Below, one piece after another: positions 687 to 7,126 of a stretch of DNA of 64,000 bases (position 1 is the stretch's first letter; the number at the start of each line of letters is the position of its first letter). The stretch is from Pseudomonas sp. R28(2017) (GTDB lineage Bacteria > Pseudomonadota > Gammaproteobacteria > Pseudomonadales > Pseudomonadaceae). Both the position numbers and the translations under genes were made by a program. The stretch spans positions 1-64,000 of the forward strand of contig NZ_NEHW01000020.1 of NCBI RefSeq assembly GCF_002112505.1, in the 5' to 3' direction. The notes below the pieces were generated by a model. The model made no database searches. It saw nothing but the letters and a program-made list of their open reading frames with translations, and was not told the origin of the DNA.

Positions 687-1538
687 ATGGCAGCACTGCA
701 CGGCAGCACGTTGGACGCAATCAAGACCAACCAGGCACAGGTGCTCAATGAGTGGGTTTCAAGCCTGGAAGCCAGCGGCGCCGCCCGCAACCTCAAGGAT
801 CAGACGCTCGGCCAGGAAACCCGCGAGTTCCTGCAACTGCTGATCGAAGGCCTGCAGGCAGACAGCGGCAACGACATTGGCGCGGCAGGGTGGGACGAAA
901 TCCGCCGGTTCCTGGAAAGACTCTCTGCCAGCCGGGCCCAGCTAGGGCATGACTCGCACCAGACGGTGTATTTCATCTTCGCCCTCAAGGGCCCGCTGTT
1001 CGGCTTGCTGCAGGCCCACTACAGCAACGAACCCGCACGCTTGGCCGAGCAGCTGTGGGTCGTCTCCGAACTGCTCGACAACTTGGGCATGCACACCATC
1101 CGCACCTACCAGAAGACGCGCGAAGCGGTGATCAAGCGCCAGCAGGAAGAGCTGCTGGAGCTGTCCACGCCGGTGGTGAAGCTGTGGGACGGTGTGCTGG
1201 CATTGCCGTTGATCGGTACACTGGACTCGCAACGCAGCCAGACCGTGATGGAATCGCTGCTGCAACGCATCGTCGACACAGGTTCGGAAATCGCCATCAT
1301 CGACATCACCGGTGTGCCGACCGTCGACACCCTGGTAGCCCAGCACCTGCTCAAGACGGTCACCGCGATCCGCCTGATGGGCGCCGATTGCATCATCAGT
1401 GGCGTGCGCCCGCAGATTGCCCAGACCATCGTGCACCTGGGGCTGGACCTGGGCACCCTGACCACCAAGGCCAACCTTGCCGACGCCTTGAAACTGGCCT
1501 TGTCGCGCCTGGGTGTGAGCCTGGCCGAGCGGGTATAG
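687..1538 (+). CDS. RsbR-like stressosome sensor (STAS co-antagonist)
   Basis: A 283-residue protein with an alpha-helical N-terminal half (about residues 1-150, the position of the non-haem globin-like sensor in Bacillus RsbR) and a C-terminal STAS domain (about 160-280). The STAS part carries PLIGTLDSQRSQ, the phospho-acceptor signature DITGVPTVDT and GVRPQIAQTIVHLGLDL, all typical of RsbR proteins. In Bacillus, RsbR and RsbS build the ~1.8 MDa stressosome that holds the RsbT kinase until stress. The site corresponding to RsbRA Thr171 appears to be Ser here (GTLDS), while the Thr205-type site is kept. I chose the ATG at 687 because AGGAG lies 11 bases ahead; an upstream in-frame ATG at 648 lacks a ribosome site. 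It opens a six-gene run with gaps or overlaps of at most 11 bases. Confidence 0.88.
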   Translation: MAALHGSTLDAIKTNQAQVLNEWVSSLEASGAARNLKDQTLGQETREFLQLLIEGLQADSGNDIGAAGWDEIRRFLERLSASRAQLGHDSHQTVYFIFALKGPLFGLLQAHYSNEPARLAEQLWVVSELLDNLGMHTIRTYQKTREAVIKRQQEELLELSTPVVKLWDGVLALPLIGTLDSQRSQTVMESLLQRIVDTGSEIAIIDITGVPTVDTLVAQHLLKTVTAIRLMGADCIISGVRPQIAQTIVHLGLDLGTLTTKANLADALKLALSRLGVSLAERV

Positions 1539-1541
1539 GCC

Positions 1542-1904
1542 ATGGAACGCATACCGATCCTGCAAATGGGCGAATTCCTGCTGGTGACCATTCAGGTCGA
1601 CATGCATGACGAGCTGGCCATGCGCCTGCAGGATGACCTTACCGACCGCATCAGCAGCACTTCGGCCCGTGGCCTGTTGATCGATATTTCCGCGCTCGAC
1701 ATGGTCGACTCGTTCATCGGCCGGATGATCGCCGACATCGCCAGCCTGTCGCGGCTGATGGATGCCCAGGTGATGCTGGTGGGCATGCAGCCGGCAGTGG
1801 CCATCACCCTGGTCGAACTGGGCCTCACCTTGCCGGGTGTCAGTACCGCGCTGAACGTCGAGCGTGGCATGCAACGGCTTCGCCAGACTGTGAGGCGCGC
1901 ATGA
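1542..1904 (+). CDS. RsbS-like stressosome scaffold (STAS antagonist)
   Basis: A 120-residue single STAS domain protein. It contains IPILQMGEFLLVTIQVD at the N-terminus, then DISALDMVDSFIGRMI with the serine (Ser57) that corresponds to RsbS Ser59 of Bacillus, and GMQPAVAITLVELGL. Length and motifs match RsbS closely, and the N-terminal sensor of RsbR is absent. RsbS is the core scaffold of the stressosome and its serine is phosphorylated by RsbT, which frees RsbT. The gene starts three bases after the rsbR-like stop, and its stop overlaps the rsbT-like start in an ATGA, so translation is probably coupled and the protein ratio fixed. Confidence 0.9.
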   Translation: MERIPILQMGEFLLVTIQVDMHDELAMRLQDDLTDRISSTSARGLLIDISALDMVDSFIGRMIADIASLSRLMDAQVMLVGMQPAVAITLVELGLTLPGVSTALNVERGMQRLRQTVRRA

Positions 1905-2305
1905 GTGCCCAGGACAGTGGCAGCCTGCCGGTACGTATCGAGCAGGATGTGGTGCTGGCCCGCCAGCTGGCCCGCAAGCTCGCCGGTGAATGCGGCATGC
2001 GCCTGGTCGACCTGACCAAGCTGGTCACTGCCGTCAGCGAACTGGCCCGCAACACCGTGGTCTACGGCGGTGGCGGCGACATGGACTGGCAGGTGCTGGA
2101 AGAGGCAGGGCGCACGGGCTTGCGCCTGGTGTTCCGCGATGAAGGCCCCGGCATTCCCGACATCAAGCTGGCGCTGACCGACGGCTGGACCTCCGGCAAC
2201 GGTCTGGGCCTGGGCCTGACCGGTGCCCGGCGCCTGGTCGATGAGTTCGAGCTGGATACCGCTCCTGGCGAGGGCACACGGGTGACGATCACACGATGGG
2301 CATGA
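1901..2305 (+). CDS. RsbT-like serine kinase (GHKL ATPase)
   Basis: A 134-residue HATPase_c protein with N box ELARNTVVYGG, G1 box DEGPGIPD and G2 box GLGLGLTGARRL, in the order and spacing of RsbT and related anti-sigma kinases. In Bacillus, RsbT phosphorylates RsbS and RsbR inside the stressosome, is released, and then activates the phosphatase RsbU. No RsbU, RsbV, RsbW or sigma-B homologue is seen in this window, so the released kinase must act on another partner; the kinases encoded next are the obvious candidates (inference). The start overlaps the preceding stop by four bases (ATGA) and its end overlaps the next gene by ten. Confidence 0.9.
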   Translation: MSAQDSGSLPVRIEQDVVLARQLARKLAGECGMRLVDLTKLVTAVSELARNTVVYGGGGDMDWQVLEEAGRTGLRLVFRDEGPGIPDIKLALTDGWTSGNGLGLGLTGARRLVDEFELDTAPGEGTRVTITRWA

Positions 2306-3312
2306 ACATCCACGCCAGCCGTACGCAGGTGCTGCCACTCGAAGACAGCAGCCAGGTCGGCCACGCACGGCGCATGGCGCAGAAACTGGCCGAGCAGCAA
2401 GGCTTCGATGGCGAGGACGCCGGGCGCGTGGCACTGCTGGCCACCGAGCTCGGCAGCAATGTGCTCAAGCATGCGCAGCGCGGTGAACTGCACCTGCGCG
2501 CGGTGCCCGGTGCCCACGGCTGCGGTATCGAACTGCTGGCCGTTGACCGCGCGCAGGGCTTCGATACCGCAACCTGCCTGGCCGATGGCTATTCCACCGG
2601 CGGCACCCAAGGCATCGGCCTGGGCGCGATAGCGCGCCTGGCCCAGGTGTTCGACGTGCACACCGATGAGCGCGGCTCGGTGATCCTGGCGCGCTTGTAC
2701 CGGCGCCACAGCGCCGACGCTGATGTTCGTATCGGCGTCAGTCACCATGCCCTGCATGACGACCCGGCCTGCGGCGACACCTGGCATGTGGCAATCGACG
2801 GCAACCGCCTCAGTGCCCTGCTGGTGGATGGCCTGGGCCACGGCCCTGACGCCGAAACCGCCGCGCAGGCCGGTGCCAGGGCGTTCGCTGCCGAGCCGTT
2901 CCTCGACCCGTTGCTGCTGATCGGGCGCCTGCACCAGGCCATGACGGGAACCCGTGGCGGTGCCGTGGCCGTCGCCCAGCATGACGCCAGCCACAACCGC
3001 CTGGCCTTCACCGGTATCGGCAACATCGGCGCCAGCCTGATCGACGGCGTGCACGCCCGTGGCCTGGCCTCGCACCCGGGCATCGTCGGCGGGCAGTACC
3101 GCAAGGCCCAGGTGTTCGACTACGCTCAGGTGAACGGCAACTTGCTGATCCTGTACAGCGACGGCCTGCAATCGCGCTGGAAACTTGAAGACTACCCTGG
3201 CCTGGTGCATCGCCACCCGGCCGTGATCGCGACCGTGCTGCACCGTGACTTCTGCCGAGGTCGGGATGACGTGACGGTACTGGTCGTCGACCTGGAGCCC
3301 TCCCATGGCTGA
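2296..3312 (+). CDS. GHKL ATPase-SpoIIE/PP2C phosphatase fusion (RsbX-like)
   Basis: A 338-residue two-domain protein. Residues ~10-135 form a second GHKL ATPase fold with an N box (ATELGSNVLKHAQ) and a G2-like loop (GTQGIGLGAIARL); the G1 region reads DRAQGFD, a weak match to DxGxG. Residues ~145-335 form a PP2C/SpoIIE phosphatase with VDGLGHGPDA, GGAVAVAQ, YSDGL and GRDDVTVLVVDL, including the Asp residues that bind Mn/Mg. In Bacillus, RsbX dephosphorylates RsbS and RsbR to reset the stressosome; this protein probably does the same, with an added ATPase or kinase-like module. ATG at 2296 is used; an ATG two codons later is possible. It overlaps both neighbours. Confidence 0.85.
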   Translation: MGMNIHASRTQVLPLEDSSQVGHARRMAQKLAEQQGFDGEDAGRVALLATELGSNVLKHAQRGELHLRAVPGAHGCGIELLAVDRAQGFDTATCLADGYSTGGTQGIGLGAIARLAQVFDVHTDERGSVILARLYRRHSADADVRIGVSHHALHDDPACGDTWHVAIDGNRLSALLVDGLGHGPDAETAAQAGARAFAAEPFLDPLLLIGRLHQAMTGTRGGAVAVAQHDASHNRLAFTGIGNIGASLIDGVHARGLASHPGIVGGQYRKAQVFDYAQVNGNLLILYSDGLQSRWKLEDYPGLVHRHPAVIATVLHRDFCRGRDDVTVLVVDLEPSHG

Positions 3313-4168
3313 ACCCGTAACCGACCAGGCGGCACTGGTGGCCCGCCTGCAGGCCGAAAACGACGCCCTGCGCGCAGAACTCGAAGAGACCAACCAGGGT
3401 GTGCTGGCGCTGTATGCCGAGCTGGACATCCAGGCCGAACAGCTGCGCCAGGCCTCGGACCTGAAAAGCCGCTTCCTGTCTTACATGAGCCACGAGTTCC
3501 GCACCCCGCTGGGCTCGATCCTGAGCATCACCAGCCTGCTCGCCGACGAGCTGGACGGCCCGTTGTCCGAAGAGCAGCACCGCCAGGTGGCGTTCGTCAG
3601 CACCGCCACCCGCGAGCTGTCGGACATGGTCGACGACCTGCTCGACCTGGCCAAGATCGAGGCCGGGCGCATCACCATCTCGCCGGCCTGGTTCGACATG
3701 CTCGACCTGTTCGCCGCCTTGCGCGGTATGTTCCGGCCGATTGTCGAAGGCAGCGCGGTGGACCTGATCTTCGAGGAGCCGGTGGGCCTGCCCAGGTTGT
3801 ACACCGACGACAAGAAGCTGGCGCAAATCCTGCGCAACTTCATTGCCAATGCGTTGAAGTTCACCGCCCGCGGGGAGGTACGCGTTTCGGCCCGGCTGCA
3901 AGGCGAGGACCAGATCCGCTTCGCCGTCAGCGACACCGGCATCGGCATCCCGGGCGGGCTGCTGAACACCTTGTTCGAGGACTTCGCCCAGGTCGATTCG
4001 CCCTTGCAGAAACGCCTGCGCGGCACCGGCCTGGGCCTGTCGCTGTGCAAGCGCTTCGCCCTGCTGCTGGGCGGCGAGGTGGGCGTGACCAGCGAGCCTG
4101 GGGTCGGCTCCTGCTTCTACGTGATCATTCCGCTGGCCCTGGCCCAGGAGAATGCCGATGAAACCTGA
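3305..4168 (+). CDS. Soluble sensor histidine kinase of the stressosome cluster
   Basis: A 287-residue histidine kinase with no membrane segment. The first ~50 residues are a predicted coiled coil (LVARLQAENDALRAELEETN). The dimerisation/phosphoacceptor domain has SHEFRTPL with His63; the catalytic domain follows with N box NFIANALKFT, G1 box DTGIGIP and G2 box GTGLGLSLCKR. No input domain is recognisable, which fits a kinase driven by another cytoplasmic protein such as the RsbT-like kinase or the stressosome itself (inference). Its start lies 8 bases inside the phosphatase gene and its end overlaps the hybrid kinase gene by 11 bases. Confidence 0.88.
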   Translation: MAEPVTDQAALVARLQAENDALRAELEETNQGVLALYAELDIQAEQLRQASDLKSRFLSYMSHEFRTPLGSILSITSLLADELDGPLSEEQHRQVAFVSTATRELSDMVDDLLDLAKIEAGRITISPAWFDMLDLFAALRGMFRPIVEGSAVDLIFEEPVGLPRLYTDDKKLAQILRNFIANALKFTARGEVRVSARLQGEDQIRFAVSDTGIGIPGGLLNTLFEDFAQVDSPLQKRLRGTGLGLSLCKRFALLLGGEVGVTSEPGVGSCFYVIIPLALAQENADET

Positions 4169-6107
4169 CCTGCGCCTGCTGATCGTCGACGACAACGCGG
4201 CCACCCGCTACGCGTTGCGCCGGCGGCTGGGCGTGCAGGGTTACGAGGTGCTTGAAGCGGGCACCGGCGGCGAAGGGCTGGCGCTGATCCGTGAGCAGCA
4301 GATAGACGCGCTCATCCTCGACGTCAACCTGCCTGACATGAGCGGTTTCGATATTGTCCGCCTGCTGCGCGAGGACGCCCGCACCGCCTTGCTGCCGGTG
4401 ATTCATGTGTCGGCAGCGTCGATCCAGAGCGGCGACATCATCACCGGCCTGAATGCCGGCGCCGATGCTTACCTGATTCACCCCGTGGACCCGGACGTCT
4501 TGCTGGCCACCCTGCGCACCCTGCTGCGCGTGCGCGACAGCGAACGGGCTCTGCGCGAGAGCGAGGCGCGCTTTCAGGAGATTTTCCGCGGCGTGTCGGC
4601 GCCCATTGCGGTGCTCGACGCCGAGCTCAAGGTGCACGAGTGCAACACGGCCTTCGTCCAGCTCGTGCAGGACAATCACCACCCCGAGTACCTGCGCGAA
4701 TGCTTTGCCAGCCAGCAGGACGCCGCGCTGTGCGAGTTGCGCGAACACATCGGCTCGGGCGAGCGCTGGAAGGGCCAGTTGGGCATGCTGGTGCACGGCC
4801 AGCCACGCGACACCGAGTGGCAGCTGTCACCTTACCGTACCCCCGGCCTTTGCCTGGTCTTTGTCGAGGATGTGACCGAGCATCGCCACCGCGAGCGCTT
4901 TCACCTGGCCCGGCTGGACGATGCCACCACACAGTTGGCCAAGGAAGTGGCGGAGCACGCCCGCACCGAAGCCCAGCTGTTGCAGCTGCAGAAAATGGAT
5001 GCCTTGGGCAGCCTCACCGGGGGCATCGCCCACGACTTCAACAACCTGTTGACCGGCGTGATCACCAGCCTCGAACTGATCCGCAAGCGCGTCACTGAAG
5101 GGCGCACGGAAAAGGTCCCCAAGTACATCGAGGCGGCGCTGGGCTCGGCCAGCAGCGCCGCCGTGCTGACTCACCGCCTGCTTGCCTTCGCCCGCCAGCA
5201 GCCGCTGGATACTCGCCCGGTGGACGTCAACCAGCACATCCGCTCGCTGGAGGTTTTGCTCGCACGGACCATTGGCGAGCGCATCATCCTCAACCTGGAT
5301 CTGTCCGATCAGTCGGCCATCGCCCTGGTCGACCCGGTGCAGCTGGAAAGCGCCGTGCTCAACCTGGTGATCAACGCCCGCGATGCCTTGCCCAAGGGCG
5401 GGCATATCTGGGTCACCACCTGCACGGCGCTGGTCCACGGTGACCCGAACCTGCGTGACGGGTCTTATGTGTCGGTGACGGTGCGTGACGATGGCTGCGG
5501 GATCGAAACGGCGCTGCTGGACAAGGTGTTCGACCCGTTCTTCACCACCAAGCCGGTGGGGCAGGGCACAGGGCTGGGGCTGTCGACCATCTATGGCTTT
5601 GCCCGCCAGTCGGGTGGGCATGTGGCGCTGCACAGTGTGCTGGGCCAGGGCACCGAGGTTACCCTGATGTTGCCCGCCACCGGCGACTGCGCTGTGGCCC
5701 CGCACCGTGAGGCAGCAGAAGACGCGCAGGGCAATGGTGAGCATGTGCTGATTGTCGAGGACATGGCTTCGGTGCGCTTGTCGGTGGCCGAAGCGCTGAC
5801 CGACGCGGGGTACCGCTGCACATTGGCATCGACCATCGATGAAGCGCTTGAACAGTTGCGGCAGGAACCGGGGCCGGATTTGCTGTTGACCGATGTCGGG
5901 TTGCCGACCTTGAGTGGGCGCGAGTTGGCGGACATGGCCAGGACCTATAGGCCCGGGTTGCCGGTTTTGTTCATGACCGGGTATGCCGATGAGGCGCTGG
6001 ACCGGCAGGCGTTTCTGGGGGAAGGCATGGATATGCTGGTGAAGCCATTCCGCTTGGGTGAGTTGTTGGAGAAAGTGAGGCGGGCGCTAGGCGCAGGGCG
6101 AGGGTAA
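4158..6107 (+). CDS. Hybrid histidine kinase (REC-PAS-HisKA-HATPase-REC)
   Basis: A 649-residue cytoplasmic protein. An N-terminal receiver has LILDVNLPD with Asp55 as likely phospho-acceptor. A PAS-like domain follows (~140-260), then a coiled linker, a kinase core with GGIAHDFNNLLTGV (phospho-His), N box NLVINARDAL, G1 DDGCGIE and G2 GTGLGLSTIYGFAR, and a C-terminal receiver with LLTDVGLPTLSG. The HDFNNL type of H box is common in large Pseudomonas hybrid kinases. The first receiver could accept phosphate from the kinase encoded just upstream. No output domain is present, so the final target must be elsewhere. ATG at 4158 is preferred to 4152 because AGGAG ends seven bases before it. Confidence 0.88.
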   Translation: MKPDLRLLIVDDNAATRYALRRRLGVQGYEVLEAGTGGEGLALIREQQIDALILDVNLPDMSGFDIVRLLREDARTALLPVIHVSAASIQSGDIITGLNAGADAYLIHPVDPDVLLATLRTLLRVRDSERALRESEARFQEIFRGVSAPIAVLDAELKVHECNTAFVQLVQDNHHPEYLRECFASQQDAALCELREHIGSGERWKGQLGMLVHGQPRDTEWQLSPYRTPGLCLVFVEDVTEHRHRERFHLARLDDATTQLAKEVAEHARTEAQLLQLQKMDALGSLTGGIAHDFNNLLTGVITSLELIRKRVTEGRTEKVPKYIEAALGSASSAAVLTHRLLAFARQQPLDTRPVDVNQHIRSLEVLLARTIGERIILNLDLSDQSAIALVDPVQLESAVLNLVINARDALPKGGHIWVTTCTALVHGDPNLRDGSYVSVTVRDDGCGIETALLDKVFDPFFTTKPVGQGTGLGLSTIYGFARQSGGHVALHSVLGQGTEVTLMLPATGDCAVAPHREAAEDAQGNGEHVLIVEDMASVRLSVAEALTDAGYRCTLASTIDEALEQLRQEPGPDLLLTDVGLPTLSGRELADMARTYRPGLPVLFMTGYADEALDRQAFLGEGMDMLVKPFRLGELLEKVRRALGAGRG

Positions 6108-6265
6108 AGCCTGAGTTCCGGCGTACGCATACCCGCATCAACGACCACCACGACATCAGGGGCAAACGCTCCGCCACAGGCGTTAACTGAGCAAGTCCTG
6201 CTAGGCACGCCTTCACCGCGTTGAGTGAACCTGTCGCGGACCGCATAACCAGGAGCTTGCGCCCG

Positions 6266-7126
6266 GTGCCCGATATTCCGACTGTCTACGCCAAACGCTT
6301 CGATGCCGTGCTTGCTTACATCGATGGCCATCTTGAGGGTGACCTCTCGGTGAGCACGCTGAGCGAGGTGGCGCATTTTTCGGCGTTTCACTTCCATCGG
6401 CAGTTCACCGCCTATGTGGGTGTGCCGGTTGCACGTTATGTGCAGCTGATGCGCCTGCGGCGTGCGGCGCATCGCCTGGCGTCCGGTGAATGCTCGGTGC
6501 TGGACGCCTCGCTCGACGCCGGCTTCGACAGCCCCGAGGCATTCAGCCGGGCCTTTCGAAGGGACTTCGGCATGACGCCCAGCGCCTTTCGACGGCAGCC
6601 GAACTGGCAGGCCTGGCATGCGGTTTTCGCTGTTCCCCACTTTTCCAGGAGCATTACCATGCAGGTACGGATGGTCGATTTCGCCGAAGTCCGGGTCGCC
6701 GCCCTCGAGCACCGCGGCCCTCCCGCGCAGCTTGACGAGAGTGTGCGCCAATTCATCCAGTGGCGCATGGGCAGCGGGCAGTCGCCGGTAGGCGCGAGCC
6801 GTACCTTCGGCATTCCATACGGCAACCCCGACACAACGCCAGCGCAAGCATTTCGCTTTGATATCTGCGGCGAGATCGACGGGGCCGTGGCGCCGAACGA
6901 CTACGGCGTCCGCGAGCTGATCATTCCCGGCGGCCGCTGTGTGGTCGTTCGTCACACCGGCTCGCCCGATCACATCGGCGAGAGCATCTATCCGATCTAT
7001 CGCGACTGGCTGCCCGGCAGCAACGAAGAACTCCGTGACCACCCGCTGTTCTTTCATTATCTGAGCGTCTTTCCTGAGACGCCGATGGACGAGTGGCAGA
7101 CGGATATCTATGTCCCGCTGCAGTAG
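6266..7126 (+). CDS. AraC-family regulator with GyrI-like effector domain
   Basis: Residues ~1-105 hold two helix-turn-helix motifs of the AraC/XylS type (LSTLSEVAHFSAFHFHRQF and SLDAGFDSPEAFSRAFRRDFG). After a linker, the C-terminal ~150 residues form a GyrI-like/AraC_E_bind domain (VDFAEVRVAALEHRGPP, FGIPYGNPD, GGRCVVVRHTGSPDHI, YRDWLPGS), as in Rob and SbmC-like proteins that bind small hydrophobic compounds. It is a likely transcription factor of unknown target. The GTG at 6266 has AGGAG ten bases upstream and is preferred; a TTG at 6221 would add 15 residues. It stands alone between the kinase cluster and the tmRNA. Confidence 0.82.
   Translation: MPDIPTVYAKRFDAVLAYIDGHLEGDLSVSTLSEVAHFSAFHFHRQFTAYVGVPVARYVQLMRLRRAAHRLASGECSVLDASLDAGFDSPEAFSRAFRRDFGMTPSAFRRQPNWQAWHAVFAVPHFSRSITMQVRMVDFAEVRVAALEHRGPPAQLDESVRQFIQWRMGSGQSPVGASRTFGIPYGNPDTTPAQAFRFDICGEIDGAVAPNDYGVRELIIPGGRCVVVRHTGSPDHIGESIYPIYRDWLPGSNEELRDHPLFFHYLSVFPETPMDEWQTDIYVPLQ

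Follow-up and report, generated by a model that had tools for sequence, protein, structure and literature searches.

The window analysed here is a stretch of 64,000 nucleotides of Pseudomonas sp. R28(2017) (contig NZ_NEHW01000020.1, positions 1 to 64,000), which carries near its start six genes coding for stressosome proteins, a soluble histidine kinase and a hybrid histidine kinase. These genes occupy positions 687-6107, all on the forward strand, and the main subject of this work is a conserved helix at the N-terminus of the soluble kinase, referred to as the linker helix. The features of the locus are the following:

687-1538, forward strand: RsbR, an RsbRD_N sensor domain followed by a STAS domain (Pfam and alignments with RsbR chains of the PDB); an ATG at 648 is also a possible start.
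1542-1904, forward strand: RsbS, a single STAS domain (Pfam).
1901-2305, forward strand: RsbT, GHKL serine kinase and putative messenger, with a HATPase_c domain (Pfam).
2296-3312, forward strand: WX, an RsbX-like PP2C phosphatase (SpoIIE) with a second RsbT/RsbW-like ATPase domain, the W domain (HATPase_c_2), in front of it.
3305-4168, forward strand: soluble histidine kinase of 287 residues, composed of linker helix, HisKA and HATPase_c.
3377-3475, forward strand: conserved linker helix of this kinase, residues 25-57, with the core ELEETNQGVLALYAELD at 3377-3427; proposed site of RsbT action.
4152-6107, forward strand: hybrid kinase of 651 residues, REC1-PAS-HisKA-HATPase-REC2; 4158 is a possible start.

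An earlier note on this DNA had described the same six products, and open reading frames and Pfam confirm them, the hybrid showing two Response_reg stretches, PAS_4, HisKA and HATPase_c. The SpoIIE match of WX (23.6 bits) lies below the 25-bit cut-off and reaches 25.5 bits in the genome-wide search. In gene order, the spacing is a 3-base gap followed by overlaps of 4, 10, 8 and 17 bases, so that the limit of 11 bases given in the note for gaps and overlaps holds with the ATG at 4158 as start of the hybrid, which leaves an 11-base overlap with the kinase, and fails with the start at 4152. Positions 1-60 of the window are a contig end with a run of G, and the first open reading frame (3-566) looks truncated.

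In sequence searches of the PDB, RsbR matched solved RsbR chains (best E 1e-34), RsbS matched solved RsbS chains (E 1e-34), and the PP2C half of WX matched 3zt9 (1e-10) and RsbX 3w40 (4e-5); we take the organisms of the matched chains to be Listeria, Vibrio, Moorella and B. subtilis. RsbT matched only chains of anti-sigma F factor (2e-6), and for this reason its name rests on its place among the genes and on an identity of 51-79% with the RsbT of other such operons. Regarding the functional residues, RsbR has the phosphosites S181 (1227-1229), a position with Ser in chain 7o0i_B and Thr in 9o4r_A, and T215 (1329-1331), RsbS has S57 (1710-1712), and RsbT retains N51, D80, G82 and G84. A sensor-plus-STAS RsbR, a single-STAS RsbS and an RsbT kinase, in this order and with their phosphosites, are the marks of an RsbRST(X) stressosome, and all of them are present. 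The phosphatase domain of WX has the Asp motifs of PP2C, presumably the metal ligands. The phospho-acceptor position of the kinase is occupied by H63, and the hybrid has D57 in REC1 (4320-4322), H294 (5031-5033) and D581 in REC2 (5892-5894). The W domain of the window (2296-2709) has Ala where the G1 box has its first Gly (G82 of RsbT), and 60 of 60 sampled W domains have T or S in place of RsbT G101.

Within the genus, a full-length RsbR match was found in 22 of 36 genomes, counting that of the window, and outside the genus none of 21 genomes from the same order has one; one further weak match (G008) lies in a frame of 639 residues. The order RsbR-RsbS-RsbT-WX-kinase-hybrid, which the earlier note had proposed to look for in relatives, is kept in 19 of the 22 Pseudomonas loci, window included, and because of this recurrence the six genes are taken to stand together by more than chance. 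The recurrent extra neighbour sought at the same time did not appear, since no gene, and in particular no seventh gene on the same strand, is common to the 22 loci. In fact, flanking genes recur in part of them only (c6 downstream on the opposite strand in 8/22, c8 upstream in 7/22), and none of the 21 further Pseudomonas stretches showed the AraC-type gene of 6221-7126. In the remaining three loci (L039-L041) there is a longer kinase composed of an RsbT-like domain, the same helix, HisKA, HATPase and REC, and the gene after it codes for a REC-HK protein.

The soluble kinase had been described as having no input domain. It is indeed a HisKA plus HATPase_c kinase, but it is not simply input-less, as its N-terminus carries the near-invariant helix EL..TN.GV.ALY.EL ahead of HisKA, and such kinases share ELDETNQGVLALYAELD...LRQASDLKSRF before HisKA. 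A profile of the linker (A1), applied at E 1e-5 to 398 Pseudomonadota genomes, matched 17, and in all 17 the linker kinase stands directly behind RsbR-RsbS-RsbT-WX. The reverse search with an RsbS profile (A8) matched 26 of the 398 genomes, namely these 17, with scores of at least 194 bits, and nine others at 117 bits or less; the listed forward frames around these nine low-scoring RsbS loci showed no linker. A sample of 369 genomes from the class contributed one genome, G746, whose RsbS (204 bits) and linker lie on the same strand at a distance of 2.4 kb, as well as seven RsbS of 131 bits or less without a linker match; G746 is counted on these two features, the full gene order having been checked in the other 17 of the 18 genomes. 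Over both samples, all 18 genomes with an RsbS of at least 194 bits have a linker match, none of the 16 with an RsbS of 131 bits or less has one at E 1e-5, and no high-scoring RsbS without linker was found in the 398 + 369 genomes. A random co-occurrence of the kinases with rsbRST, which the earlier note had named as speaking against its proposal, was thus not seen, linker kinase and matching RsbS subtype going together in 18/18 genomes. By this comparison the helix, placed before HisKA and behind RsbR-RsbS-RsbT-WX, is the mark of one stressosome subtype, to which the window locus belongs.

The nine control loci have other proteins behind RsbX. Among the 10 of these that were scanned, RsbU_N stands on a GGDEF protein or on kinases in two loci (L233, L237), and the other loci have GGDEF-EAL proteins in three, PP2C in one and kinases without RsbU_N in three. 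Moreover, fusions of W and X also occur in modules without linker (L232, L236), and in one of these (L232:4883-6121) an RsbT-like ATPase domain lies on a HisKA_2/HWE-type kinase behind RsbR-RsbS-RsbT-WX, without helix.

The helix extends well beyond the genus. A degenerate DNA pattern for the motif core, applied to 84,980 species genomes, gave at least 120 loci, the titles of which name Pseudomonadota, Actinomycetota, Cyanobacteriota, Acidobacteriota, Planctomycetota, Chloroflexota, Spirochaetota, Gemmatimonadota and one Bdellovibrio metagenome-assembled genome. The genes upstream were assessed in the 77 loci whose fetched tile extends at least 2.6 kb upstream (in 43 of 120 this part was shorter and they were not counted), and among the loci listed 75 of these 77 have RsbS, a free RsbT (at least 143 bits) and WX upstream, on the same strand and in that order; a stricter test for free RsbT gave the same 75/77. 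The 75 positive loci span six phyla (Pseudomonadota, Actinomycetota, Cyanobacteriota, Acidobacteriota, Planctomycetota and Gemmatimonadota). The block from -4 to +12 is conserved nearly everywhere in 64 rows thinned to less than 80% identity, some of its positions being fixed by the pattern; of the 134 usable rows, all have E at -4, a position outside the pattern, and 132 have L at -3. In actinobacterial loci (e.g. L088, L089, L092), a tandem copy of the motif lies 18 residues upstream, i.e. five helical turns, in 30 loci.

Three architectures were distinguished in a tree of 119 of the 139 kinases (16 were cut off or too short, and L108, L147, L173 and L176 were left out as unclear). In class i (34/119) the helix is N-terminal as in the window kinase, L105, L138, L163 and L177 being placed here by hand, as the frame before their helix looks like read-through. 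In class ii (45/119) an RsbT-derived ATPase domain with its ATP-site residues kept precedes the helix; of 35 cases measured, 27 have 63 residues between the end of this domain and the motif. In class iii (40/119; 34 Actinobacteria and 6 Burkholderiales) this domain is degraded, members being recognised by their score or by a tandem motif; L133 was reassigned to this class. All 40 fused domains sampled, chosen by score so that degraded ones are not represented, retain the E, N and D of the ATP site and the two Gly that come next, and 60 of 60 W domains retain E, N and D. In a tree of RsbT-like domains (160 of 260, the window RsbT not among them, bootstrap not fully settled), the W domains form one group (100/100; 60/60 sampled rows), the fused domains form another (100/99), and free RsbT and fused domains are joined at 100/100, free RsbT alone not being resolved as a single group. 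In the kinase tree, class i is one group (Shimodaira-Hasegawa-like approximate likelihood ratio test, SH-aLRT, 92) lying among class ii, a nesting which suggests that the Pseudomonas-type kinase has lost a fused RsbT-like domain.

The domain behind the helix also varies. In Planosporangium (L176:5825-7459, one of the 75 positive loci), the helix precedes a SpoIIE phosphatase behind RsbS-RsbT-WX, with a GAF-like stretch below the cut-off, and in L084, L103 and L085 it precedes another kinase type, a CckA-like kinase-REC; judged from these sequences, the output behind the helix is exchangeable. Single chains of the natural fusion L182 and of the window kinase were also folded. The L182 model (predicted local distance difference test, pLDDT, 89.6; predicted template modelling score, pTM, 0.53) has an ATPase domain at 1-142 and one helix at 164-250 running through the motif into HisKA, and the AlphaFold model of the window kinase (81.5, 0.67) has residues 5-80 as one helix. 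A PDB fold search with the L182 model returned histidine-kinase-type entries in the best 50 rows and was unhelpful.

As for the partner of the kinase, among the loci listed the next gene codes for a receiver domain in 77 of 78 scanned proteins, window and L147 included (set of 79 genes, the fragments L103 and L175 left out), and for HisKA in 49 and SpoIIE in 25 of the same 78; this frequency points to the N-terminal receiver of the hybrid, REC1, as the partner. All 25 actinobacterial next genes combine a receiver with SpoIIE (PP2C), so that in these relatives the relay would end on an RsbU-like phosphatase. The second gene downstream showed no common family in the wider set (29 of 30 proteins scanned). 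Furthermore, no RsbU_N match was found by Pfam in the locus proteins or in the genome, the B. subtilis control being detected, and RsbU or another RsbU_N target was rejected on these grounds as partner of RsbT in the genome. An RsbU/RsbV/RsbW-type pathway, which in the earlier note would have spoken against the coupling, was therefore not found as far as RsbU_N is concerned, but an RsbU/RsbV-like pair (HsbR/HsbA-like) does exist, with a receiver domain instead. In fact, the genome has three SpoIIE matches: an HsbR-like REC-SpoIIE-HATPase protein, a frame of 422 residues, which we take by its size to be RssB, and the RsbX fusion. Only one of its 11 Hpt matches is in a small frame (115 residues), adjoining the REC-SpoIIE-HATPase protein and a STAS protein (G000:C1, about 179.5-182 kb, L043). 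From domain order and neighbourhood we assume this layout to be HptB-HsbR-HsbA; an NCBIfam scan returned none of these three names. In P. aeruginosa, HptB-HsbR receives its input from three hybrid kinases, and RpoS is under the control of HsbR-HsbA (PMC6482189). That the hybrid of the window signals by the same route is an improbable guess.

Taking these data together, we regard it as fairly probable that the six genes are one module in which RsbT or the W domain acts on the linker helix and the kinase addresses the receiver of the hybrid. RsbR and RsbS would form the stressosome holding RsbT, which on a stimulus would phosphorylate S57 of RsbS and S181/T215 of RsbR and leave the complex, the RsbX domain resetting the system; this cycle is proposed because it is known in Bacillus, Listeria and Vibrio and the residues are present here. 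From the co-occurrence, the gene fusion and the exchange of output domains, we infer that freed RsbT, or the RsbT-like domain of WX, acts on the helix, which would take the place of the RsbU_N domain of RsbU. The kinase would then alter the phosphorylation state of the N-terminal receiver of the hybrid, a phosphotransfer to REC1 proposed because the gene pair is conserved, and the kinase and second receiver of the hybrid may pass the signal to a partner elsewhere, HptB-HsbR-HsbA being one speculative candidate. The passage from a Ser/Thr switch to His/Asp signalling put forward in the earlier note is thus supported by comparison (18/18 genomes, 75/77 loci listed, receiver in 77/78), but its choice of RsbT as sole messenger is not, because the RsbX fusion has a second RsbT-like domain. 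A wider proposal is held with less assurance, as rather doubtful: the helix may replace RsbU_N as a portable receptor for stressosome messengers, carried by kinases in several phyla and by at least one PP2C, the ancestral form having a fused RsbT-derived domain by which the kinase may dock on the stressosome, and Pseudomonas having lost this domain, with free RsbT acting in trans.

Several points weigh against action of a stressosome messenger on the helix. RsbT and the W domain co-occur equally and are therefore indistinguishable as messengers, and no interaction between Vibrio RsbT and the downstream two-component protein was found, according to Heinz 2022 (PMC9237108). In two planctomycete loci (L147, L150), the tile of at least 2.6 kb upstream of the helix contains no stressosome genes, and Pfam finds nothing before HisKA in their kinases. 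The gap in RsbS bits is partly circular, since 12 loci of the high-scoring group went into profile A8, the profile searches scored limited candidates per genome, so that misses are possible, and the kinase tree was midpoint-rooted and made by a quick method, with moderate support. In addition, the helix could be a connector of the signalling-helix type and not a docking site.

This last explanation survives best among the rivals, and is nevertheless unlikely. The helix would only pass on dimer strain, the stressosome signal entering elsewhere, for instance by RsbT phosphorylating the kinase as proposed in Heinz 2022. Signalling helices are coiled coils of about 40 residues before HisKA domains with an ERT signature (PMC1592074), beside which the helix core, E-E/D-T-N-x-G-V, was set by eye, and both the single helix of residues 5-80 in the window kinase and the L182 relative, in which the RsbT-like domain precedes the motif on a single long helix (residues 164-250), would suit such a connector. 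However, the block from -4 to +12 is strongly conserved, including the E at -4 outside the pattern (134/134), the window kinase has nothing N-terminal of the helix, and the helix tracks the stressosome genes in 75 of the 77 loci listed. Still less likely is that the messenger is the W domain binding the helix, with RsbT phosphorylating the core only. The WX gene adjoins the kinase gene and is found in 75 of the 75 positive loci listed, and the W domains are a separate group (60/60 sampled), whose ATP sites retain E, N and D in all 60; yet W-X fusions also occur without linker (L232, L236), RsbT is the activator of RsbU in Bacillus (PMC12143880), the domain fused to the kinases groups with RsbT and not with W, and the window W domain has the Ala at the first Gly of its G1 box. 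Finally, that the kinase genes are neighbours by operon economy and serve other signals, the stressosome output being a different protein, would fit the PAS domain of the hybrid and a link between the parts that in Pseudomonas is drawn from sequence comparison, but is hardly credible given six genes together in 19/22 loci with no neighbour common to all, a coupling retained across six phyla and relatives with an RsbT-like domain fused to the kinase.

Modules of RsbR, RsbS, RsbT and RsbX (RSTX) with downstream HisKA/REC proteins were already described in Heinz 2022 (PMC9237108), where an action of RsbT on the sensor kinase is proposed and no RsbU_N was found in most of the downstream proteins considered; the general idea of a stressosome feeding a two-component system is therefore not new. 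The closest known case is the RSTX module of Vibrio vulnificus with VvD1/VvD2 (PMC9237108; PMC10014275), which like the window locus has RsbR-S-T-X followed by a sensor kinase and another two-component protein, lacks both RsbU and sigma-B, and carries Ser at the first RsbR site (chain 7o0i_B). RSTX directly before HisKA/REC is common to both, whereas the globin-coupled RsbR and the single-domain RsbX of Vibrio are not found in the window, where RsbR is of RsbRD_N type (72 bits), no globin model matched and X is fused to an ATPase domain. In Vibrio, moreover, VvD1 has a PAS domain, and a link to cyclic di-GMP is known for the downstream module; in the window, a receiver is contained in the hybrid kinase and the kinase is led by the helix, the comparison with VvD1 covering its described domains. 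The Bacillus subtilis system (RsbR-S-T-U, RsbV-W and sigma-B) has the same core proteins and phosphosites, but its RsbT activates the PP2C phosphatase RsbU through RsbU_N, of which none was found in the genome of the window. In the RsbK-RsbY system of Bacillus cereus, a hybrid kinase acts on a REC-PP2C protein, so that a histidine kinase feeds a receiver-PP2C protein as it would in the actinobacterial relatives; RsbK is not known to be tied to RsbRST. The kinases and GGDEF proteins with RsbU_N beside stressosome genes (PMC9237108; PMC12143880), of the kind seen in L233 and L237, also have an adaptor for RsbT before the kinase, but the window kinase has no RsbU_N match and a single conserved helix in its place.

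What appears to be new, from sequence comparison, is the conserved helix of the kinase and its link with one stressosome subtype. The parts covered here of PMC9237108, PMC10014275, PMC12143880, PMC4976288, PMC8115616, PMC1592074 and PMC6482189 mention neither the helix nor the RsbT-kinase fusion, and both are also absent from related titles and the openings of abstracts; an earlier description elsewhere, for instance in a 2017 stressosome review, is possible. For the downstream proteins without RsbU_N, Heinz 2022 leaves open the route by which the RsbT signal leaves the complex, and for this route the helix is a short, mutable and testable target, the Pseudomonas form, without a fused domain, being the simplest place to test it. 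In bacteria without sigma-B, the helix would offer a route from the stressosome to a His/Asp relay.

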